Of a DNA stretch of 64,000 nt, positions 37,665 through 52,552 are shown piece by piece. The stretch spans positions 1 through 64,000 of the forward strand of contig VCJN01000080.1 in assembly GCA_006384855.1 (NCBI GenBank), read 5' to 3'. The translations under genes were made by a program, and so were the position numbers. This DNA comes from Tetraselmis striata (Eukaryota > Chlorophyta > Chlorodendrophyceae > Chlorodendrales > Chlorodendraceae). Position 1 is the first letter of the stretch. Every line of letters starts with the position of its first letter. The notes under the pieces were generated by a model. That model saw only the letters and a list, made by a program, of their open reading frames with translations. It had not been told where the DNA came from and did not search any database.

Positions 37665-37954
37665 TCCAATTGTGCTGGAAATTCCATCACTGGCCTTTAA
37701 TTTGTCTTGCGGAATGCTTAGGCAATTTGCTACTTGCCATTACGGTTTCACATGACTCAGCATTAGAGACCATCACGGAGCGTCGCCTGGAGCAGGTAGT
37801 GTGCCCAGGGGCGAAAAAAAGTCCTGTCCCGGGGGCGAAAATAGTGTGCCTAGGCAGGGCGCTTTAATTACATGCATACCTATTAACTAACGGGTACCCT
37901 GCCCGAACTGCGATCGTAGAGCGAGACTACCCTGTATCTCATACATGTACATGT
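37665..37954. other. Short spacer between retroelement remnants
   Basis: Nothing recognised; it may belong to one of the flanking remnants. Confidence 0.35.
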
Positions 37955-38868
37955 ACTCGTAAGAGCTGGCATCCGCCACATGGCTACCGTTCGTGATGCC
38001 GCCTTCATCGGCTGCATGAATGCCATCCTCCCAAGGTTCCTGACTAGGAACTCCGGCACCAACACCCCCACCCCTGGTTTCTTCGACCCACAGCTCGGGT
38101 CCGTACTTGGCCGAGGCAGCTTCAACGCAACTTCTTCCGCCCGCCAGTATGACCACTTCCTCAACGATGCTCATGGGTCGGACAGCTACGCCGCGGAGAT
38201 GCGCGAGGCGTGGGGCCGCCTCCAAGCGGCTACTGTTGGCCATCTCGGCGACGCAGATGCGCGCCAGATGGAGCGGGAAGTGGAGGCTGCGTCGGGCTCG
38301 CAAAAGGAGCTGACGGCATTTTTAGACCAGGCCAACAACTCTCGGCTTCAAAATGAGGTGTGCGCTCTCCCTGCCACATGTAGGGAACGGATCTTGTTCA
38401 ACCAGCTCGACGCGGCGTCAGGCATGTGGACAGTGGCCATCCCCACCGCGCGGACAGTCATGACTCCGCATGAGCTGCGGGAGGTCGCTGCCGGGTACTT
38501 CCTTCTGCCTAGCCCGTGCTTGGCCCCGGTGGTTGGGAGCCAGATCATTCTGCCCTCGACGGAGCACAATCCCGTCACTGTTGACCTATACGGCGACGCG
38601 CTCATGAACCTCCCGGCGCCTGGAGACGCTCTCTGGCGTGTACAGCACGACGCTATCGTAGATGCCTTCCGCGATCACTGTGTTCACGACCTAGGTATCG
38701 CGGTACGGCGGGAGATGGATGACTTGTTACAGCAGGCAGTGCCTCTCGGCAACACCGTACCTAGGGATGAACTCAAGGACATAGTGCCGGACGCAGAGCT
38801 CTCCCTTCCGGCGTTCAACGTCGTGACCGGGAGCTATGATCCCCGGAGCTTGAAGTCCACGCTGCTAA
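37955..38868 (+). pseudogene. Reverse-transcriptase-associated ORF, left half
   Basis: An open frame from before 37980 runs to the left end of the large TIR element. It contains RHMATVRDAAFIGCMNAI, then ASGMWTVAIPTARTVMTPHE, FLLPSPCLAPVVG, VDLYGDALMNLPAPGDALWR and QHDAIVDAFRDHC. This succession (W-x-x-A-x-P-T, L-P-S-P-x-C-A-P, D-x-Y-G-D, W-R-x-Q-H-D) is that of the region after the reverse transcriptase in a family of non-LTR retrotransposon proteins common in algae and protists (recalled, not searched). The 5' part with the polymerase is missing. The stop at 38879 lies inside the inserted element's terminal repeat, so the real continuation is beyond 51415. Confidence 0.55.
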
Positions 38869-38893
38869 CAGTAATTTAACCTATTTTGCACCG
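38869..38893 (+). repeat. Left terminal inverted repeat
   Basis: CAGTAATTTAACCTATTTTG followed by CACCG. It pairs with 51391-51415 with three mismatches. Confidence 0.75.
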
Positions 38894-39159
38894 TGGAATT
38901 CATTTTGCACCGTAGGGTTTGTTTATACCCTAGTTCCCGGGTTTACTATCAGTACTTCAGACTCACTGGTGATGTAGCTTGGGTTTGTAGACCTTGGGTG
39001 CAGTGCAGCATTCAACAGCATGAAGGCCAGCCGCGACGCATATCCAATGTTGGTTTTGGAGCATTTTGTCCAAAATGGGACAAGATGAGGCAATGAAATC
39101 AATATTTATTATGATTATTACATCCAGCGGCTAGCTAGCCACAAGACGTTGCTGATAGT

Positions 39160-42100
39160 TTATTCGTTGAGCATCCCCAACTCAAGCAAGTCCTTCTTCG
39201 TGGCTGCATTAAACTTGACGACTCCGCCGGGTTTGCGTTGCGCTGGGGTGGTTGACATGACGTGGACGCAGTTGTTTCGTGGCTGGCTGATTTGCCACCC
39301 AGTTTGCGCATATGTCTTCACGACTTGGACGCTTTTACCGTACCACTTCTTTCTGACCATGGTGCCGTCCTCGTTGAACACCTCTCGACTTCCCGACGCG
39401 TCGTGGATGGCCTTCGCGTACGATAGGGGGACGGCTTCAACAAGCTTCCAAGGAAGCGTCAGGCACTTCTCCCAGCTTGTGTCAACTGGCTTCTTCCCTC
39501 CTTTTGTCTGCGCGTACAACCATAGGGGCATAAGGGGTTTGCCCTTTGCATCGGCATGGAAGGGCTCGTATACGGCCACGGTCAACGTGTCTTCGGTAGT
39601 CTCGCGCGACTTCACAAGCCCGATGACGAATCTCGACTCCCAATCACCAAGAGTTTCAGGACACTTGTCTTCCTCATGCACCTAACGATGACCAAGACCG
39701 CGAGCTATGTTAGTCCCGAGCGACACGCCACGCCATTTTTGTCCCAGCTGGGACAAAATAACAAGCAAGGTAGAAGAACCAAATTGTTTTGTCCCGTAAA
39801 GGACAAAAATGACAAACAATGGGACTCACATCGGAGACGTCGATGACAACGAGGTTCGAGCCCTTTGCATCGCTGGGCGATGTGTTGTCATGAAGCCTCT
39901 CCTTGGCGCCGGCGTGAACTCCCCGGAAGGCGCTGTCATCTTGAAGCACTTGAGCACGAACCTCGGCTTCAACGCGAGCGGCTTCGGCATTGTTGAGGTC
40001 TGCGTTGGTAGCCATCGTGTGACGTGCCTCAGCAGGCGCGGTCTGCCCGTGCTCGCGCAAGAAGTCGTCAACTTCCTCTTTCCGTTGCGGCCAGAACCCG
40101 GAGAAAGCTGCCGAAGGAGAAGTTTGCATCTCATCCAAGTCGTCGAGCAGATTCTTCCAGCTCTCGCGCTCGACTGGGGAGAAGTGCCACTGGACCGCCA
40201 GGTCCGTGATGTACGACCTGACCTTCTTGAAATCATCCAAGTACCTCCGGACCTTCACCGCGTCGGGCTTCTTTTTGTCGCAGAGAGCGTACAAAAGGGG
40301 CCGGCCCGCACGAATCTCGGGCGTCCCAGTTGGCGCGCTCTTCAAGATCTGCACGGGCTCAGAAAGCGGTGTGTTGGACCACAAGGCGGTGCGCAACGAG
40401 CCGCCAGACGCGGCGGCGTCGTCACGGGTGAACTCGAATTTGTGCGGCTTACTGATGTCCTGAATGTGGTCTTGGAAATGGGGCCTTAACCACTCAGAGA
40501 AGTCGAGGGAGAATGAGAGCTCAGCAATCTCCGGAGTGGGCGAGAATGCCTTCGCCACCAAGTCAAGAAAGGCCTCGATTGTGTAGGCGGAGCTGCGAGA
40601 TAGCGCAAGACTGATGCGGCTGAAGATCTGGTCAACCCGTTCGTGAGTGTGCCCGACAGGCAAGAAAGCCAAATGAATGACGTCGCAGATGCCGATAGAC
40701 ACAAGCCAATTGCAGAGGGCCGCCACGTTCCTATTCTTGCTCTCCCTGACGGTGTTGTCCATCTGGATTCTGATGTACGGAATCTTTCTACCACGGTGTT
40801 GAATTTCCTGCATCGCAGACCAGATTTCATCAGTCCATGGCTACCGGACAACCACGGCGAACCTATCGGGAGGCTAACGAGCTCACCTTCATGATCGTGA
40901 TCCATATCAGAGTGCACGTCGTGGACGAATCGTGGGGGATGGTGTTGGTGTAGTAGTAGATGTCGTCCGGGCGGTATCCGTCGTACTTCACACAGGTGAG
41001 GTGGTACTTGAGGAGCATGTCGGGCTTCACAGTCTTGGGGATGCGAACCCAGTGAGGCAGCAGGGTCTTCGCGGAGTCCATGCTATCAATTTCGAAGAAG
41101 AAGAAGTTTCCATGGCCAAGGCGCGACTGGAAGACGGCGTTGTTCAGATCCCTTCGTTCCTGGCGCACTCTCTCGAGGTGTACCTTCTGCTCAGCTCTGA
41201 CCTGACGCCTCACCAGTTGCTGATGTTGACGGTGCACTTGACGTTCCTCTGGCGTCATGTCCTTTGTGCAAATCTCGCGAGCTTGGTCTCTGAGTGCTTT
41301 GCCCGCCGCGCATATGGGACAGTGGCTGAATCGCTTCACCTTCGGCGTGGTGACATCCGGGAAGTCTTCCTTCCAAGTCCGGCGGAAAGTGTCGAACGAT
41401 GCGAGCTTCACTTCGCTCTCGGTAGCCAAATCTACAAAGGGGCAGGGGCGTGATATGTCGGTATACAAATAAGGTCTCATAATGCGAGACAGAAAAGTTC
41501 GGTCTGAAGTGGGTCGAAATAATTATATCGGTAGTGGGTGAATAATTCTGTAATCAGCATGGGGAAACAATCTGTCAACAGTGTGACGAAACGGTATGTC
41601 AGTAGTGGGACGAAACCGTATCTCAGCAGTGGGACAAGACGTTCTCTCTGCAGTGGGACGATATCGGCTAATTATGTGGGACAAATACTTTTGCGGTCGG
41701 TGGGACGAAACGGTATGCCATGAGCGGTGCGAAACGTTCTGTCATCAGTGGGACGAAATCGGTCCGGCGTCGGTGGGACTAAACGTTCTGGCGATAGCGG
41801 GACGAAACGTTATGTCATCAGTGGGACAAAACGGTTTGTCATCAGCGGGACAAAACGGTTTGTCATCAGTGGGACGAAACGGTTCGTCATCAGCGGGACA
41901 AAACGGTCTGTCAGCAGCGGGACAAAACGGTTTGTCATCAGTGGGACGAAACGGTTTGTCATCAGTGGGACGAAACGGTATGTCATCAGTGGGACGAAAC
42001 GGTTTGTCATCAGTGGGACGAAACGGTTTGTCATCAGTGGGACGAAACGGTTTGTCATCAGTGGGACGAAACGGTCTGTCATCAGTGGGACGAAACGGTT

Positions 42101-43027
42101 TGTCATCAGTGGGACGAAACGGTTTGTCATCAGCGGGACGAAACGGTCTGTCATCAGCGGGACGAAACGGTATGTCATCAGTGGGACAAAATGGGCCTCA
42201 CCACGGAGAATGGCGTTGTCGTCCTCGGCCCACGACTTGTAGTAGTAGTAGACGCAAATCTTGGTCATCCAGGGAGGTAGGTGCTTCTTGAAGGTCTCGC
42301 TGTTTCCGTCATGAAAAGGCATGATCTCGACGTGACCGAGGTCATCCGAGAAGAAGTGCTCGAGAAACATGCGCACATGCTCCCTCGGTCCGGTCTGTCT
42401 GCTCTCGTATTGCTTGCGCTGCCTGATGTACGTGGGTTCGTTATCCACCACCGACCGCTGGATCACGAGACGTCTGTGTTTCGAGACCTGATGCAAGACC
42501 TCCCACGCACGCCCACACGTGTAGATGGGGCCGCGATGATCGAAAGATCGCAAGTAGCCACCGTGATCGAACATGTAATCGAACTTGTCGGATGCCGACT
42601 CGTAGCCACCCCTGAGAACCTGAGCGAGCCGGTCAAAGGAGCGGTTCTGATTGCCAGAGTATACGGTCAACGCACGGTCCAACACGGCATCAACGAGGGC
42701 CTCTCCGCACTGTGTGTATAGCTTGTGCACGCACTTGCGCGAACAGCATGGCGACTGCTCGCTAGCCTCCTTGGCGAGCATGAGGCGGATACAATCGCGA
42801 GAGGTGCGCTTGCTGATCAGAGACGAGACCTTGCCATTACCGCTTTCGGCGACCTCATCGCAGCCCTTGCCCCACGTGTACTTCCTTTTCTCAGGCTCCT
42901 TACGATCACTCGCACGCGCGTCGCAATCACACGAGTATCCACTGCGGCACGAACACAGCGGTAATGTAACTGTAGTGTCCGACGCGCCGGATCCTGGAGA
43001 AGAGGCCATGCTTTCGACCGCCGCCAT
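39160..43027 (-). CDS. Putative DDE/DUF7869-like transposase, 956 aa
   Basis: Four exons on the minus strand: 43027-42202, 41431-40887, 40807-39830 and 39681-39160, with donors GTGAGG, GTGAGC and GTGAGT, all in phase. The N-terminal part is Cys-rich (CSCRSGYSCDCD; PCCSRKCVHKLY), as in transposon proteins with CxC-type zinc domains. Exon 2 has FSHCPICAAGK (zinc knuckle), a basic helix and EIDSMDS (Asp391/394). Exon 3 has IRIQMDNTVRESKNRN (Asp474) and FLPVGHTHERVDQIFSR (Glu/Asp near 513-516). This D...D-N-T...H-T-H-x3-D layout is the hallmark of eukaryotic DUF7869-type proteins and fits an RNase-H-like strand-transfer core (inference). The C-terminal exon (TLGDWESRFVIG) resembles no family I know. 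Start: ATG 43027 is preferred over 43159, whose extra residues are coded by a poly-C/G run. Intron 1 holds a 24-bp minisatellite. Confidence 0.72.
41540..42195 (+). repeat. 24-bp minisatellite array 1
   Basis: About 16 regular 24-bp units (core CATCAGTGGGACGAAACGG) at 41,800-42,195, preceded by degenerate units back to about 41,540. It lies in intron 1 (41432-42201) of the minus-strand transposase gene; the intron donor GTGAGG abuts the array, so the in-frame VPLMT-type repeat is not expected in the protein. Confidence 0.9.
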
Positions 43028-43570
43028 GCAGCGCGGGGCGAGTGGGTGGGGGGGGGGGGGGGGTGAAGGACTGTGATCTGTGGTGAAGAAGAGTGACGGC
43101 CGATGACCGTTCTCGGACGGGCCGTTGACCGGGGGGCATAATATCCAGCTACGGGTCAAAATAATTCAGGACTCAAATACCGTGCTATTTCGTGTTTCTT
43201 TCGTATGTCGGGAATAGTTCTATACTAGTAAGTACACCCGAATCCAATCCAAGGAATATATCATCCCATGAAGGAATATTATTGCCACGCCACTGTACTC
43301 TCGTACCGTTATGACTCTCGAGTAGGGAATATTTTATCTTCCAGTAATAGTAATATATAGTCGCAGTAGTTAGCCTTGTATATTCGTCGCGGTGCAAAAT
43401 ACATGAACCTGATGACGACGACGAGGTACACTATAGTGTGCGCACGCGCGCCGTTGGTCCAGCAGGGGTCAGAGCGGCGGCAGACAGAAACCACGTCATT
43501 TCCACCTCTCCCTCACCGCTTCCCACCAAGAAACCCGCTCATCTACCGCGTCAACCTACCTACGGCCAGA
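43028..43570. promoter_or_regulatory. Shared intergenic region of two divergent genes
   Basis: The two transposon genes start 543 bp apart and point away from each other, so this interval should contain both promoters. It includes a run of about 16 G (43049-43064) and an AT-richer centre (43190-43390). No TATA box is claimed with confidence. Confidence 0.4.
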
Positions 43571-46500
43571 ATGGCGCCGAAGAAGAACGAGCCTGCCAAG
43601 GACAAGGAAGACAAGGACGACGCCACCCCAGGTGAGTTGCGCGCGCGTACAGTAGCTGCCTGCCTGCTCGACGCGTGATACGGCCAGATCTAGCGAGTTC
43701 GGTTAGGGTTCCCTGTAGAAGCGGTGTAATCTAGGACCACTCGAGGTGTAGGCAGACGAGTGGCAGCGTACAGTAGCCGCCTGCCTGCTCGACGCGTGAT
43801 GCGGCCAGATCTAGCGAGTTCGGTTAGGGTTCCCTGCAGAAGCGGTGTAATCTAGGACCGCTCGAGGTGTAGGCAGACGAGTGGGAATAGAAACTCAAAC
43901 GAGACGAGCGGCATCAGGGTCCTGCATGGTAGTATTACGTCCCGTCGAGGCAGCTGTTGCAAGCAGTAAGGATGCTAATTGGTGGTGGGAGGGGGTGGGG
44001 GTGAAGAGCGGCCAGGGGGAACCTCTGCCTGTACTCCGCCGTAAGGAGTGGTTTAATATTAGTGTGAAGCGCAGTACTTACAGACATTACATTATTAAAC
44101 CGCAGTACATAATGTATTGAATATAGTTTTGTCATCAGTGGGACGAAACGGTTTGTCATCAGTGGGACGAAACGGTTTGTCATCAGTGGGACGAAACGTT
44201 TTGTCATCAGTGGGACGAAACGGTCTGTCATCAGTGGGACGAAACGGTCTGTCATCAGTGGGACGAAACGGTTTGTCATCAGTGGGACAAAACGGTTTGT
44301 CATCAGTGGGACGAAACGGTTTGTCATCAGTGGGACGAAACGGTTTGTCATCAGTGGGACGAAACGGTTTGTCATCAGTGGGACGAAACGTTATGTCATC
44401 AGCGGGACGAAACGGTTTGTCATCAGTGGGACGAAACGGTTTGTCATCAGCGGGACGAAACGGTTTGTCATCAGCGGGACGAAACGGTTTGTCATCAGTG
44501 GGACGAAACGGTTTGTCATCAGTGGGACGAAACGGTTTGTCATCAGCGGGACAAAACGGTCTGTCAGCAGCGGGACAAAACGGTTTGTCATCAGTGGGAC
44601 GAAACGGTTTGTCATCAGTGGGACGAAACGGTATGTCATCAGTGGGACGAAACGGTTTGTCATCAGTGGGATGAAACGGTTTGTCATCAGTGGGACGAAA
44701 CGGTCTGTCATCAGTGGGACGAAACGGTCTGTCATCAGTGGGACGAAACGGTTTGTCATCAGTGGGACGAAACGGTTTGTCATCAGTGGGACGAAACGGT
44801 CTGTCATCAGTGGGACGAAACGGTCTGACAGGATATGATATTTTTAGGTCGAAGGTCCAAGCGGACATCAAAACCTACCGAGAAAGCAAAAGAATTCGAT
44901 GCGCTCGGAGCGCTAGTCGGGAGAAAACACAAGGCGTCATCTTCTGTGCCCGAGCAGCCGGCGGCGAAGAAGAGCCGTGCAGCCTCAGCTTCTGCGGCTA
45001 GAGCCGGCGCTGAGGCATCAGGTAACCCCTGGAAACCGAGCCTTTTAGGAGGTAGGGTGCCGGCTTACGGCACGCACTCGCAAGGAGAAAGATCGGCCGC
45101 CTTGCGTTTGAGGGCCCGAATCAAGAGCGGGCAGGTCCTCTCAGATGCTCAAATGCAGACAGCGCGAAGGCTAATCGATTACGAAAAGCTCATGCAAGCT
45201 TACTATCAATCAGGTCCTCGCCTCTCCAATCATATTATTTTTGTGAGTGCACTGTGTCATATTGACATTGTTTGAAATCATGTGTGTTGACAGGTTCTAA
45301 AGGACGCGCACAAGAGCCAGTAGCGACTGAAGCTTCAAAGGAATCCAAGGGAAAAGAAAAAGTTTCAGAAACGATTGTGACTCCAGGTAATTGTGACTGA
45401 AAGTATCAATCCCTGCCTTTGTGAGTGCACTGTGTCATATTGACATTGTTTAAAATCATGTGTGTTGATAGGTTCGAAAGGACGCGCACATGAGCCAGTA
45501 GCGACTCAAGCTTCAACGGAATCCAAGGGAAAAGAAAAGGTTTCAGAGACGATTGTGACTCCAGGTAATTGTGACTGAAAGTATCAATCCCTGCCTTCTC
45601 ACTCCCTTCGATTACTTTCTCGTCAATGAGTATCTGACGTTCCAACAGGTCGTAAATTGGCGCGGGCAACCGCGAAGGAAGCAGCTGGTAGATCGGGATC
45701 CCCAGGTAAGAAAAATCACGCTTGGCTTTGATGGTGTATGGCGATACCGTTCAGGGGTTAATCGTGACGCCCACTGCAGGTGTGTTGAGTACTCTCTACT
45801 CATTCTTTACAGGTTCCCCCAATCAAGGCTCTTCTTTGTCTAAAGGCCCGCCTCAAGTACCGGAAACAGAGCCTGAGCCTGAAATAGAGCACACTGAGCC
45901 GGAGCCGGAGCCCGAGCCGGAGCCTGAAACAGAGCCCAATGAGCCCGAGCCAGAGCCTCGGCATGAGCCTGAAACTGAGCCCGCTCTGACGGAGCCCGAG
46001 CCGGAGCCCGAGCCGGAGCCCGAGCCCACTCGGCTTGACCCGGCGCCAGAGGCCGAGCTCGAGACTCCAGCGCCGACTACCGGGCAAGCGTCCGGTTCTG
46101 GAGCCTCTTGTTCTCGAGCCCCTGTTGCCGAGGCTCCGAGAAGGGTTCCTGAATTCCTCAGTATGTGCACGGATGAAGAGGTCTTCGGCACAGAGGAAGA
46201 ACAGAGGCAACGGGCGGCGGAGAAGCGTAAGCAAGCTCTCGACATCACCGGCACTCCCGGACCCGAGAGGAAGACAAAGCTGATGACGGTCGCCTCTTAC
46301 GACGACTTCTTTGACGAGAGGGACGGGTCCCAAGAACATGACTCCTACAGCGACTTTACCTCAAGGAGCTGGACTATCCACTGGTTCAAGAACGCAAGTG
46401 CTAAGGTCGAGATCTATTTGTACATCGAATTGCACAAGGCGAGCCTGCTGACTGGCAAGGACTTTTTCGATGATCCGAAGGGGCCACTTCTCGCGTGTAT

Positions 46501-49500
46501 CGGAAAGATCAAGGACGTCAAGCTGGACTCGGCCGGAAACTACGGGGTGAGTAAAGCTTATATGATGTCTGAATTCGTGTCAATGTCGTGTTTCAATAAG
46601 TATTAATATTCTTGTGCTTGTTACCGCAGATATCTCTTGAACCTTATCGCTTGACAGTGCACAAGGAGTACAGGATCGATGTCAGCTTTGAGAGGTTGCT
46701 ACTCCACGCGATCCAACCGTCACTCCCCTTCCAACCGCGGTTCCAGTCTTACTACGCATGGACTTTGGTCGAGCGCAATGTGCTGGCGCAGGCGCTGACA
46801 GGTTTCGCGTCGGGTCAGATTGACATCGATGACTTGGCCAACATTGACAAGGATTTTAAGAACGCGCTTCCATACGTCAACACGTTGGCCGTCCCGCCGG
46901 CCTTGAATGGCTTCCACAACACCGGTGCCGTCGACTGGATCTCTTACGGCCACCTCAGAGTCGAGATTGCTGATCCAGAGGTGAAGACATCTCACGGTGG
47001 CGACATCAACATGTTGTACGCCGACAGAGTCAACCTCGTGGTCAACAAGGCTACGGGGCTGCCTTACATTTTCAGCTTCATATCCGATAGGTTCGTCGCT
47101 CCGCCGCCGGAATTTGAATTCCGTTCCCCAAAGCTCCAAGACTGCAATATGGTGGCGCAAAGCTACAAGGTAAAAGCCTATCGCGACCTGTTGTACCTAT
47201 CCGGATCAGATATGTGTAGACAAATATAAATCAATACACAATGCAACTTACTGACATCCCTTTATTTTGCATTTGTTATTCAGAGGAATCCTTCCCTATC
47301 CGCCGAGAATTTCTCAGTGTCCTTCCCAGTGGTTGCCAAGAATTTAGGCTTAACGTTCCGCGAAGAGTACGAGCCCCTCGCTCAGACCATGGCCAACTTC
47401 AAGGAGCTAGTCGCAGCAGACGAAGGCGGGGAGAAGCCGAGGTTGGCGGATTCAAGTTCCTACAAGCCAGACATCGACGCCATCATCGATTTTCTTGGCG
47501 CCCACGGCGCGCGTCAAGCCAACATCGACGGCAGCCACAGACGGGAGGCGAAGCGCATGGTGAAAGAAAACTACCCGGAAATCTACAACGCCAACAAAGG
47601 CATCCACCTCACGTCGACTAAGATGTACATCGGCCTCTCGCCGGAAGTCTGCCGCTACATGTCTATGAAGCTCAACGAGGCGGGTCACACCGTCGTGGGA
47701 GACACGTCGATGCACAAACTCCTGGTGAGTGACCCATTCTCCCAAATTACTATTTAGCTAACCGTGGCAGCAAATAGGCGTAAAGTGTGACAAAAGTCGT
47801 TCCGTCGTTAGCGGGTTAAAAATATGTCACAGCGGGACAAAACGATTTGTCATCAGCGGGACGAAACGGTCTGTCATCAGTGGGACGAAACGTTCTGTCA
47901 TCAGTGGGACGAAACGTTCTGTCATCAGCGGGACGAAACGGTCTGTCATCAGCGGGACGAAAGGGTTGGTCATCAGCGGGACGAAACGTTCTGTCATCAG
48001 TGGGACGAAACGTTCTGTCATCAGTGGGACGAAACGGTTTGTCATCAGTGGGACGAAACGGTTTGTCATCAGTGGGACGAAACGGTCTGTCATCAGTGGG
48101 ACGAAACGGTCTGTCATCAGCGGGACGAAACGGTCTGTCATCAGGGACGAAACGGTATGTCATCAGTGGGACGAACGTTCTGTCATCAGTGGGACGAAAC
48201 CGTTCTGTCATCAGCGGGACGAAACGGTTTGTCATCGAGGTACAAGCGTTCGGAATTTTGAAATCGGTGCAATTGTTTCTGCAGAACCTTCGCAGATGTT
48301 TCGAGAGCTGGTATGCAGAACAGGATGCAAATCGCCCCGGCTTTAGGGCACTTCCGCAAATCAGGGTAGTGAAGGAGTTCAAGAAGTCTGAAGTTCTTCA
48401 AGTTGAACTTGAGAAGATCGGCATCAAAGATGAGAAGAGCAGCGAGTTCTCAAATTTGATTGACCTCTGCTCGCGCCCACAACGGTGAGCTGCGTACATG
48501 ATGAAAATTTATCGTGTTGTTAATGCTGCTAGATTCTGACAAATGATTTGCGCAGTGTTTTTGAGCCCCTTGAGCAGATTTCTGAAGCCTACCGGCATGT
48601 TGACCTCGGGGTTCGAGGATGGGACGAAGCCAGAACCAAACTCCTAGACCTATTTTTTACTACGAGCAAGAACTCGATAGAGTCAAGCATCTCAGTACGG
48701 CAGGAAACTCACCCAGAAGGAAGTGAGCAAGGTTTACGAAGCAATTCGGAAGCCTATCAATACAATCCTCGATAACAAGAAGTACGGCTTCGGGAAAGAC
48801 AGAGCTCACTTCCGAGTCGCCCTCATGGAGGTAAGTTGTGACCGACCCCAGTGTCTTAATCATATGGAATACTATCATTGATTCCTTTCTCCGTACTGAA
48901 GTTTGTTTTTCGACCCAGGATGTCGGCTTTGGCCCCGGTACGCCCTGGCTAGACGAGCCGTCTCTTGCCAAGCAGAGCGACAGCGCGGATCTCCCTGTGG
49001 GCCAGATGTACCTGGTGGTTGGACTGCTCATCCAAGGCGAGCACAGTGTGACCCCTTGCCTCTACGAGCTGGTGGATGACATAAAGCATGCCGGCAACAA
49101 TGGCCCCATGGCTGTTACGCACACCAACGCGGAGTGGCTCGCGATGATTGAGACCTGGCGGTTTCGCGATCTCTTGCGTCGAGCAAGCATCAAGGTCATG
49201 AATGCCATTGACACGGCCAAGGGCAGGGAGGCAATCGGACTGCTGACGCCGGACGAACCGGCCAGGAACTGGGGGAAATATCTCTCGGACCACATCATCG
49301 ATTGGGATGTGGAAGACAAAGTGTCGGATGAGCAAGCGGCCGCTCGCCTTGACGCCATCACCAAGTTCCGAGCCAAGGTTGATGACCTCGGCCCAACAGG
49401 CTTCCCCAGAAAGTTCCAGGATTTGTTCAAAGGTGCTCATCGCTCCGGTCCTTTGATGGTCTTGCTGACCCCTCCTGCCAGATGGGGGGACATGAAATCC

Positions 49501-51072
49501 GCCGATTGTCTCACACCACTACCGGTTCGAGAGCATATCGCGGCCACCAACACCACCATCAGGAGTGAGGCGTATCGCATCAAGAATCAGATGCCGGACT
49601 TGGTCATCTCCTTCTTCACAGAGTTTGCTCTTCTGGCATGTGCGCCGGAGCTTATCGCGGTTTCCGCTCCGAATGTTTCTAATGAGCTGTGGATATCGAT
49701 GAAGGTAACTAAGATCTTGTGCAACCACAAATGCTCTTCTGAATTTTCGTTGTGAGCTATTAACCCGAATCTGTTTTCTAATACACACAGGCCGAGAAAC
49801 TTCCGGTGATGCCCAAGGGCCATGAGGTCGACAAGGATGAGGATGTGTGGTTGAACACGGAGCTTTGCAAGACTTGCATTGTGGAGGGGAACTTCAAGGC
49901 TCCCGCGACAAAACAATTCGTCGCGGACGCCATGTCGGCAGTTCGTGCCAAAAAGGCAACAGTCTTCATTGCCGACGCGCTTTTCGGAGCTGGTTCGCAC
50001 ACATGGGACTCGAAGGATGCTGCGTGGGGTACGGACGACTTCAACGACGTGTTTGCTTTCGCCAGGCAAGACAACCCCCACAACCCCGGTGCGTACTAGA
50101 TGACTGTGCTTTCATTTATCTCATTCCCGATTTACCCCCGCGCAGGCAGTTGAATATCCTGACTGGATCTTCTGACGTCCACACTGCTCTCGATGGGTGC
50201 CATTTCTTCATTCACCTCTCGGACCAGCAACTTGGATCCGCAATCACAGCCGTTCAAACACAAGCTGAGGACCTCATCTATCACGTCCTGACTTGGGCCA
50301 AGGATTGCGGGATGAAGATGGGCAGCTCTCTGCGTCACGACGCTGAGTACTACCTCTACGTCAGGAAGCCCCCGCCAAGCATCATAGCTGACAACATCCG
50401 TTTCAATGATCCCCGAAGGTGAGATTTGATCCGTGGAAAATAGCCGGCTTGTATATTCTACTCGCTAAGCCGGTTGTGCCTTTCCAGGTTCTCTACATCC
50501 ATCATGTTGGGTCACTTCAAAGACAGTTCGAAATTGAAGGACGAGAACAGACAGACGGTGAACAAGTACCAAAAGCCTATCGCTCTCTTCGCCAAGCACC
50601 TTAAGATGGCGGCAACAGACGGGACAACAATCGTCGACGTCACAGCCGGAACCGGGACAACCGCGGTGCGTGAGGGGTGCAACCCGGGTGAGTGTCTTAA
50701 TGGGGTCAGCATAAAAAAATTAACGCCTTGTGCGGTTTGCCACGCCTTTTCCAGGTCGCTGCGGCCTTTTCCGTGTGGTGGGACCATATGGATCATAGCT
50801 ACTCGTTCACACACAGGAACTTGAAGATGATCCTCATTGACAACCAGAAGACGCAAATCGCTGGGATGAAGTCCAGGATGACCTCATGGTTCAAAGAGAA
50901 GCCATGGGACGAGACTCAACAACTGCGTCCAAGTGACTTCGAGAAGTGGCCGGGTCTACCCCGTCCAATGACCGAGTTAGAGGAGGAGTTAGAGCGTGCA
51001 GCGGCGGAGAAGAGGAGGCAACAGGCAGCGGAGCGCCGAGGGGATTATGTGATCGAAGATGAGGATATGTAG
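43571..51072 (+). CDS. Transposon-borne large protein with methyltransferase-like C-terminus
   Basis: Exons: 43571-43631, 44848-45021, 45294-45386, 45472-45564, 45649-45705, 45813-46546, 46630-47169, 47284-47724, 48285-48484, 48556-48830, 48919-49704, 49791-50088, about 50146-50418, 50488-50665, 50755-51072; roughly 1,500 aa. The N-terminus ([17 protein letters not shown], then RRSKRTSKP) is basic; a Glu-Pro repeat follows (~residues 180-240). The middle ([20 protein letters not shown] onward) is unrecognised. The end fits a beta-class amino-methyltransferase: IADALFG with WDSKDAAWG (motif IV place), LTWAKDCG, then KPIALF and the SAM motif [15 protein letters not shown], then a Glu/Arg-rich tail. 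Motif IV is DALF instead of DPPY/F, so catalysis is doubtful. Frame breaks near 48650-48720 (T6 run) and between 50048 and 50150 are either homopolymer assembly errors or decay. Confidence 0.62.
43648..43892. repeat. Two tandem ~121-bp copies in intron 1
   Basis: AGTAGCTGCCTGCCTGCTCG (43651) and AGTAGCCGCCTGCCTGCTCG (43772) begin two copies that both contain GCCAGATCTAGCGAGTTCGG and GAGGTGTAGGCAGACGAGTG. They lie just downstream of the first exon. Confidence 0.85.
44129..44830 (+). repeat. 24-bp minisatellite array 2
   Basis: About 29 units of the same 24-bp repeat as array 1, in intron 1 (43632-44847) of the plus-strand gene, ending 17 bp before the acceptor. The unit variants TTT/TCT/TAT and GTGGGACG/GCGGGACA alternate along it. 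Confidence 0.92.
45294..45564 (+). repeat. Duplicated exon-intron unit (178 bp)
   Basis: Exons 3 (45294-45386) and 4 (45472-45564) of the transposon gene are 93-bp near-copies, each coding a 31-residue Lys/Glu/Ser-rich segment beginning GSKGRA and ending VSETIVTP. The intron halves before them (GTGCACTG/ATTGACATTGTTT blocks) are duplicated too. Confidence 0.88.
47824..48240 (+). repeat. 24-bp minisatellite array 3
   Basis: About 17 units of the same repeat, several with GTTCTGTCATCAG, in intron 8 (47725-48284) of the plus-strand transposon gene. A few units are shortened by one or two bases near 48140-48200. Confidence 0.9.
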
Positions 51073-51104
51073 TACAATTCCGCAAAATTAGCCGCTCATA
51101 TGTT

Positions 51105-51275
51105 TTGTCCCGGCTTTGACAGAGTTTCAGCCCCGGACGGCACAAACTACTTGGTAGCCATCACGGCCCCCGCTCTTTTTTGTCCCAGTTTGGACAGAGT
51201 TTCAGCCCCCGGTGGCGCAAACTTCTTGTAACCATCCCGTTTCCTTCACTCTTTTGATTTGTCCCTGCTTGGACG
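51105..51275. repeat. Right subterminal direct repeats
   Basis: Two ~75-bp copies beginning TTTTGTCCCGGCTTTGACAG (51105) and TTTTGTCCCAGTTTGGACAG (51177), each followed by AGTTTCAGCCCC, plus a shorter degenerate third copy near 51258 (TTTGTCCCTGCTTGGACGG). They lie after the stop codon of the plus-strand gene. Confidence 0.75.
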
Positions 51276-51390
51276 GAATTGGTTTCCCCGACTTGGCACA
51301 AAATGAACCAACCGGCATTCATATTAGCTTTCAATACCACTGCTGCCCCCAAACCCTAATTTAGACCTAACCACAATGCACCGCGTGCCT

Positions 51391-51415
51391 CGGGGCAAAA
51401 TAGGTTGCATTACTG
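51391..51415 (-). repeat. Right terminal inverted repeat
   Basis: Read on the minus strand: CAGTAATGCAACCTATTTTG then CCCCG. It matches the left repeat at 38869-38893 at 22 of 25 positions. Confidence 0.75.
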
Positions 51416-51700
51416 TTGGAGTTTATTACAGCTAGAGTTCAAGACTATGCGGTACGGGGTCAAGTACACTGCAATGCCCCGGGCCACGGCTGTGGATCGG
51501 TTTGAGCGCTCCCTGTTGGGCGACATACAACGGGGGTTGGCTGCGCGGGATGCGGCGTGGCACAACACGGAGCCCGGACAGAAGGGTCCTCTTCGAGACA
51601 TCCTGGATATGTCGGAGTACACGGGCATGGTCTTCGGCACAGTGGGTGAGGTGAGCAAGGGGGTGCACCGCACAGTGGTTTCGCATGCTTGGCTGCGGAT
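51416..51700 (+). pseudogene. Reverse-transcriptase-associated ORF, right half
   Basis: Directly after the TIR the frame reads LLQLEFKTMRYGVKYTAMPR, then ERSLLGDIQRGLAARDAAWH and SEYTGMVFGTVGEVSKGVH. In the retrotransposon family assigned to 37955-38868, a segment of this kind (L-x-E-x-K-T, then V-F-G-x-x-G-E) follows the part preserved on the left. The two together make one ORF interrupted by the 12.5-kb element. Further downstream the frame decays (stop at 51788). Confidence 0.5.
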
Positions 51701-52552
51701 CGGGGTGCCCTCTCATCGCGGGGCACTCGGTGCATCACCCGGGCTCACCAGGAGGCCTTGCTCGCAAGAGATTTCCTCGGGGTCCTGAGCTTGGTGACTG
51801 GCCGCTCGAGAGCGCGCTCGTTGCCTCATCAGGCGGCGCATATTCGTGTGCCATCCCGTTGCTGAAGCTGCACAGCACGTCCGAGGATCACCCACACACA
51901 CACGTGCACGCGTGGCCCGGACTCTGAACCGTGTGCGCATCACTCATCCATCCCGCCTTTTGCGGGATGCGGGCCGCTTTTAGGCGGCTTGCTGTGTTGA
52001 TTTTCTAATTTGGGGGACTGCCCTTTTTGTAATTCACACCTGTACTCGTACGCTGCATTGGTTTCACTGACGACAGCTGCCAGTCCTGTCCACGGGGCGA
52101 CAAAAAGGATTAAAAAAATCTGCTGGCACCGACCGGGCGCCGCTTCGCCCCGCGTATGAACGGCTGTTGTTGTCCCCAGCGCAGTCCTTGCATCTCGTCA
52201 TACATCCAGCAGGGTAGTCGCTACATCACCGTTGGCGAGCACAACAACAATTGCTGGCGACAGCAGCAGACCGTAAGATAGTAGGTAGCAGACCGCCTTT
52301 TGCTCTGCTGCCGCTCCAATACTGGAGTAGCTCAGTGAAAACCGAAGCAGGCAGGCGTGCTAGCGGCGTCGCTATCGCCTAGTCCCGGCGGGGAAACGTT
52401 ATACACTACCTCCGCGCAGCTACGTTAAGGTACCGTACCAGTATAGTTGCTCTACTCAGAACAGCTCGGCGGCAGAAATTTCACACAGTCGCACGGTCCT
52501 CCGCCGCACGGGCACGGGGTAATACCTGCTAGGCACCACCTGCCCTGCCGCT
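51701..52552. other. Spacer upstream of the NADPH oxidase gene
   Basis: It holds the decayed tail of the retrotransposon ORF to about 51950, a short CA tract (51891-51902) and about 550 bp of leader/promoter. No other gene was recognised. Confidence 0.45.

Follow-up and report, generated by a model that had tools for sequence, protein, structure and literature searches.

To our knowledge, the VANDAL elements of Arabidopsis are the best-documented transposons that counter silencing in a sequence-specific manner, with TnpA of maize Spm providing a second case. Published work on VANDAL describes a conserved transposase accompanied by a variable VANC protein with internal peptide repeats (PMC5735166, PMC10398659), with the targets of VANC being tandem repeats of a motif located in introns and upstream regions rather than in exons (PMC5735166). 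For other DNA transposons, 8-bp target duplications are reported for Zisupton, and fungal DNA transposons, KDZ among them, are reported to carry a TET/JBP dioxygenase (PMC12730594). Here we describe an element of 12551 bp (positions 38867..51417, plus strand) in the window, a stretch of 64,000 nucleotides from contig VCJN01000080.1 of the green alga Tetraselmis striata, that carries a gene for a DUF7869 protein (gene 1), a gene for a large protein with a methyltransferase-like domain (gene 2), and dense arrays of a short motif in the introns of both. The anatomy of this transposon, namely its ends, target duplication, two genes, and linked noncoding motif, is directly evident. At a little short of an even chance, we tentatively read it as a DUF7869 transposase with a fast-evolving, array-binding partner protein that would oppose silencing in the manner of VANC.

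The window element is a genuine many-copy DNA transposon of this alga. Screening of the T. striata assembly (224 Mb, 2903 contigs), for which all match counts given here are lower bounds, yielded 413 exact matches to the end pattern AACAGTAATNNAACCTATTTTGCNCCG (220 forward, 193 reverse) compared with 0 for the reversed control, and the 232-bp left end and 336-bp right end used as queries each gave 40 scored matches, the best of ~400 candidates. Comparison of 20 other end pairs places the termini at a 27-bp inverted repeat, AACAGTAAT...ATTACTGTT, with the end pattern found in the window at 38867..38893 (plus strand) and 51391..51417 (minus strand). An initial annotation of the window had noted 25-bp inverted ends (22/25 matching) and called for a search for other copies sharing them; the ends are present where it put them, with the true termini lying 2 bp further out on either side. 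Inverted ends common to many copies, together with a target duplication of fixed length, 4 bp, place the element among the terminal inverted repeat (TIR) class II DNA transposons. A perfect 4-bp duplication flanks 15 of the 20 opposed end pairs, with 2 bp duplicated at one, none at four, and no common target sequence. Five further elements were read by eye, with the 4-bp duplication present in C2384 and C1562 and absent from C1441, C2110, and C2449, and the sister element C1660 has the perfect 4-bp duplication CTAA. Pooling all end pairs, the window copy included, gives a perfect 4-bp duplication in 18 of 27, the chance agreement of two random 4-mers being 1/256.

The window copy itself is flanked by GCT on either side (38864-38866 and 51431-51433), a 3-bp duplication, with 13 extra bases at the right junction (51418..51430). 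Its position inside another element, as initially proposed, is borne out by the empty site, with five of five host-repeat paralogues, fetched from 39 other scored matches, uninterrupted at the insertion point; the 13 extra bases occur in none of the five. The host repeat (37920-38866 and 51431-51788) is very abundant and carries a long open frame, with the 300-bp left flank of the element as query giving 1601 candidates, of which the best 40 are 96-100% identical.

Gene 1 (39160..43027, minus strand) comprises four exons (42202-43027, 40887-41431, 39830-40840, and 39160-39681) encoding a protein of 967 amino acids. One of these exons matches the DUF7869 profile (PF25273) with 127.4 bits against a cut-off of 26 (E 6.7e-37), and the D-N-T...H-T-H-x3-D core recognised in the initial annotation sits within this match (40415..40813, minus strand). 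The motifs DNT and HTHxxxD, and the IDxxD that precedes them, are kept in seven of seven metagenomic relatives at 21-26% identity, with LDxxD in place of IDxxD in one, whilst CxxC, IIDG.D, DNT, and HTHED are invariant among four compared relatives. The spliced frame is intact in seven of 13 mapped copies (the window copy, C2449, C2110, C1562, C1441, C2294, and C363), deleted or partial in C2384, C554, and C408, and broken in C24, C70, and C483. The ratio of nonsynonymous to synonymous change (dN/dS) is 0.08-0.56, mostly 0.1-0.3, in 14 of 15 pairs; the remaining pair has a single synonymous change only. At least 150 DUF7869 matches in the genome exceed the cut-off (150 scored of 548 candidates). 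The Pfam name of this family states no function, a term search of the literature found no paper on DUF7869, and a search of viral contigs with a few peptide patterns found no relative of DUF7869 or of gene 2. The initial annotation had regarded gene 1 as a KDZ-like transposase. Judged from its conserved Asp and His motifs, gene 1 is likely the transposase of the element, however the KDZ affiliation was not supported: 19 families are matched at E values up to 5 by any of 13 members, the KDZ profile PF18758 being absent from this set, and a genome search with this profile gave no match, its controls being equally silent.

Gene 2 (43571..51072, plus strand) is represented by a splicing model predicted in the present analysis, with 15 exons in the window copy (43571-43631, 44848-45213, 45294-45386, 45472-45564, 45649-45705, 45813-46546, 46630-47169, 47284-47724, 48285-48484, 48556-48830, 48919-49704, 49791-50092, 50146-50418, 50488-50665, and 50755-51072), the window copy being frameshifted in exon 10. 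The two genes are thus divergent and intron-rich, as first described. The gene 2 frame is open for 1542 amino acids in C1562 and C2449, for 1571 in C1441, and for 1567 in C24 once intron 10 is removed. In this last copy both splice sites of intron 10 are changed and the protein match passes through it without a stop; the 84-bp intron, its donor and acceptor altered and its frame open throughout, appears as if turned coding. Gene 2 is accordingly open in four of the seven mapped frames, three of them with standard splice sites throughout, and broken in C2110, C483, and the window copy. The first third of the protein is of low complexity with Glu-Pro repeats, and the matches listed include 49 gene 2 proteins (8000 candidates scored), all from the same alga. 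A 178-bp tandem duplication (45240-45597) holding one whole 93-bp gene 2 exon is present twice in the window, in C1441, and in C70, and once in C1562, C2449, C24, and C2384.

That both genes belong to one mobile unit is supported by their shared order across copies and by their adjacency in a gene set of independent origin. All four other complete copies aligned (C2449, C2110, C1562, and C1441) are colinear, with the same order in C24, in the diverged sister C1660, and in those parts of C363 and C2294 that were read; C1660 is 86-94% identical to the main family in gene 1 and 57-91% in gene 2 by matched stretch, some of these stretches spanning introns. In the independent set, 13 of 49 gene 2 models are numbered adjacent to one of 50 gene 1 models, compared with a mean of 0.11 and a maximum of 3 in 2000 random draws (45000 genes assumed), and one adjacent pair, P0073 and P0044, comes from the diverged branch. 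The pairing proposed in the initial annotation, which was to fall if no other copy shared both ends or if the genes occurred separately in single-copy conserved loci of related species, is thus supported, neither refuting condition having been borne out. Among the titles and abstract openings covered, a body of literature with subscription papers mostly outside it and no repeat database, we noticed no described element in which these two genes are combined.

The C-terminal part of gene 2 (49791..51072, plus strand) resembles N6/N4 DNA-methyltransferases. Using the sequence of C1562 with its predicted exon 13, PF01555 matches with 30.7 bits against a cut-off of 26.7, whilst five public gene 2 models score 24.8-26.2, under the cut-off, and P0060 gives no match; a phage DNA-methyltransferase family matches at E 4.4e-9. 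Motif I, the S-adenosylmethionine (SAM) motif, is intact, and is found by pattern in five of 17 models searched. The DPPY motif initially reported was not recovered, with the matching place, equated with motif IV by order and spacing rather than by a profile match, reading DALF in 13 of 13 gene 2 models and in the diverged P0073, and the PF01555 match beginning downstream of it. An alternative candidate for motif IV, TPPARW, was set aside, DALFGxGSHTWDS occurring at the expected spacing before motif I in 13 of 13 models and PPARW in five. Searches of solved structures gave no match for the methyltransferase part, and for two profiles one match each (E 1.1 and 0.039), neither convincing. Of the accessory roles initially suggested for this protein, a DNA-binding factor fits, whereas a modifying activity is not supported, given DALF in place of DPPY.

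The window element contains 69 occurrences of the motif GGGACRAAA (GGGAC[A/G]AAA), with 67 in introns, two in the right subterminal part, and none in its 7621 coding bp; the other 51.4 kb of the window hold two. The intronic occurrences form arrays of a 24-bp unit in three introns: gene 1 intron 1 (41564..42191), gene 2 intron 1 (44128..44824, 29 units), and gene 2 intron 8 (47825..48236), all on the plus strand. Across 690 array units, deviations amount to 1.1% of cases at the eight fixed positions of the core compared with 9.4% at 15 others (position 15 left out), or 5.2% at non-core positions once the two most variable places are removed. The array goes with the element beyond the window also, with a two-unit pattern giving 760 matches in the genome; of the 100 listed, 90 are in element orientation and 92 have an inward-facing end no more than 13.5 kb away, and seven of the remaining eight are on C30, where a DUF7869 match lies at a distance of about 7 kb or less. 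The number of motifs varies between copies, with 83 in C2449, 60 in C2110, 67 in C1562, 56 in C1441, and 38 in C2384.

The subterminal TTTTGTCCC motifs of the initial annotation are present, and belong to a larger pattern of 20-base dyads, TTTTGTCC...GGAC. One such dyad, TTTTGTCCAAAATGGGACAA, lies in the left subterminal part (39064..39083), two lie in gene 1 intron 3 (39737-39756 and 39787-39806), and two in the right subterminal part (51178-51197 and 51257-51276), with a further TTTTGTCCC half site at 51103 and one shorter match in the right flank. Four or five of these dyads are found in nine of nine copies examined with both ends (the window copy and eight others), and the 24-bp array unit itself holds a weaker dyad. 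The element has a CpG observed/expected ratio of about 1.0, compared with 0.87-0.95 for its flanks, which provides no argument either way on a methylation footprint.

Several copies have lost one or both genes. C470 retains gene 1 residues 701-967 together with gene 2 query residues 1483-1573 and scraps only, and is non-autonomous, with a clean 4-bp duplication and two motif arrays in opposite orientations; it also contains three 1.5-kb direct repeats. C70 has lost most of gene 2 and keeps a clean duplication and two arrays, C2384 is missing gene 2 exon 1, and C554 aligns with the window element solely in the left 2.4 kb, arrays being absent from the 13.6 kb read. Pairs of ends separated by 18.6-28 kb, those of C483, C264, and C345 among them, raised the idea of giant relatives, which was rejected on finding that C483, the case read through, is a 12-kb element with a nested insertion of 8.6 kb, tandem-repeat-rich and situated in the last exon of gene 1. 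A 28-kb end pair at C264:10579-38544 carries the 4-bp duplication ACGC and eight separate array matches at 15.4-24.3 kb.

Under the reading we tentatively favour, gene 1 would cleave the element at its AACAG...CTGTT ends and integrate it through a target cut staggered by 4 bp, the duplication being observed and the catalysis proposed, such that the element would move by cut-and-paste. Gene 2 would encode a large DNA-binding protein that changes rapidly and derives from a methyltransferase fold with a lost catalytic motif; this protein may bind GGGACRAAA both at the single dyads near the ends and in the tandem intron arrays of the two genes, and through this binding might keep the chromatin of the element open and expressed, opposing silencing. 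The chief rival casts gene 2 as a partner of the transposase akin to TnpA, with dyads and arrays serving as docking sites for a transposition complex or in self-regulation, and without a role in silencing. This explanation, which we consider possible but unlikely, would account for dyads of a single length close to either end and within intron 3 of gene 1, four or five of which recur in every copy examined with both ends, for the arrays containing the same half site as the dyads, and for the two divergent genes in each element, however most sites lie in arrays deep inside introns, away from the ends, and the evolution of gene 2 is far more rapid than that of gene 1, which would be unusual for a core transposition subunit. 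The dN/dS of gene 2 is 0.49-0.79 across six pairs, and its exons are more diverged than its introns in five of six comparisons with the window copy.

A second rival takes the arrays to be inert intron minisatellites and gene 2 to be a decaying passenger. Consistent with this, array length differs between copies (38-83 motifs in five) and gene 2 is broken in three of seven mapped frames, lacks exon 1 in C2384, and is mostly lost from C70 and C470. We nevertheless consider this improbable, as three separate introns carry the same unit, related dyads stand singly close to the ends, variation within the array unit is lowest in its core, and the gene-poor C470 still keeps its arrays. Furthermore, among the four open gene 2 frames (1542-1571 codons) no stops are observed in six pairs, compared with 2.0-9.8 expected, and the 257 changes between C1562 and C24 include none where ~10 would be expected, indicating that gene 2 has been kept as a protein. 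Least probable of all, and in our view very unlikely, is that gene 2 encodes a catalytically active N6-adenine or N4-cytosine methyltransferase marking its own element, protecting it or timing its movement; the PF01555 score, the phage-family match, and the SAM motif recovered in some of the models are in its favour, whereas DALF at the DPPY position and the start of the PF01555 match downstream of it argue against catalysis. Several observations also weigh against the anti-silencing reading that we prefer. Gene 2 is broken in the window copy itself, and nine of 27 end pairs, that of the window copy among them, lack a full 4-bp duplication. C1562 and C2449 are nearly identical over the first two thirds of gene 2 and diverged thereafter, a mosaic that suggests recombination between copies, which could be the source of the missing duplications. 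The clean duplication of C70, despite its loss of most of gene 2, implies that gene 2 is not needed in cis. In C1660 the gene 2 introns are slightly more diverged than the exons, and no pair has a dN/dS over 1, so that fast evolution of gene 2 could reflect weak constraint. Finally, whereas VANC and its targets co-diverge, the array unit is unchanged between the main family and C1660, the one sister family examined.

Like the fungal transposons with TET/JBP genes, the element is a DNA transposon in which one gene encodes a fold known from DNA modification, however this fold is that of a methyltransferase, gene 1 gives no KDZ match, and the target duplication is 4 bp rather than the 8 bp of Zisupton. 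As in En/Spm (CACTA) elements with their TnpA and TnpD proteins, a transposase, here a probable one, is accompanied by an accessory protein, here putatively DNA-binding, and by subterminal motifs. In contrast to En/Spm, the termini read AACAG rather than CACTA, the duplication is 4 bp rather than 3 bp, and Pfam scans gave no such match. The uncharacterised DUF7869 domain thereby gains a defined element with known ends and target duplication, making transposase activity directly testable.

The closest resemblance is to VANDAL, an Arabidopsis MULE with VANA and VANC proteins, which likewise combines a conserved transposase with a variable accessory protein containing internal peptide repeats, and has dense arrays of short motifs in one orientation in introns, none in exons, with lengths varying between copies. 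As expected of VANC-type targets, the arrays described here have a common orientation and are confined to noncoding parts (0 of 69 motifs coding), with one inverted array in C470. The components themselves are different: the probable transposase belongs to DUF7869, with no MULE match in Pfam scans, the accessory fold is methyltransferase-like rather than DUF1985, and the target duplication is 4 bp. The combined proposal that DUF7869 marks a eukaryotic superfamily of DDE/D transposons that has so far gone undescribed and duplicates 4 bp of its target, and that VANC-type anti-silencing evolved independently here through a non-catalytic methyltransferase reading intron arrays, is a speculative one that we would regard as rather unlikely to hold in full. 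An anti-silencing system of this type in a unicellular alga, with its transposase and accessory fold both unrelated to those of VANDAL, would point to intron arrays for self-recognition as a general form of counter-defence.

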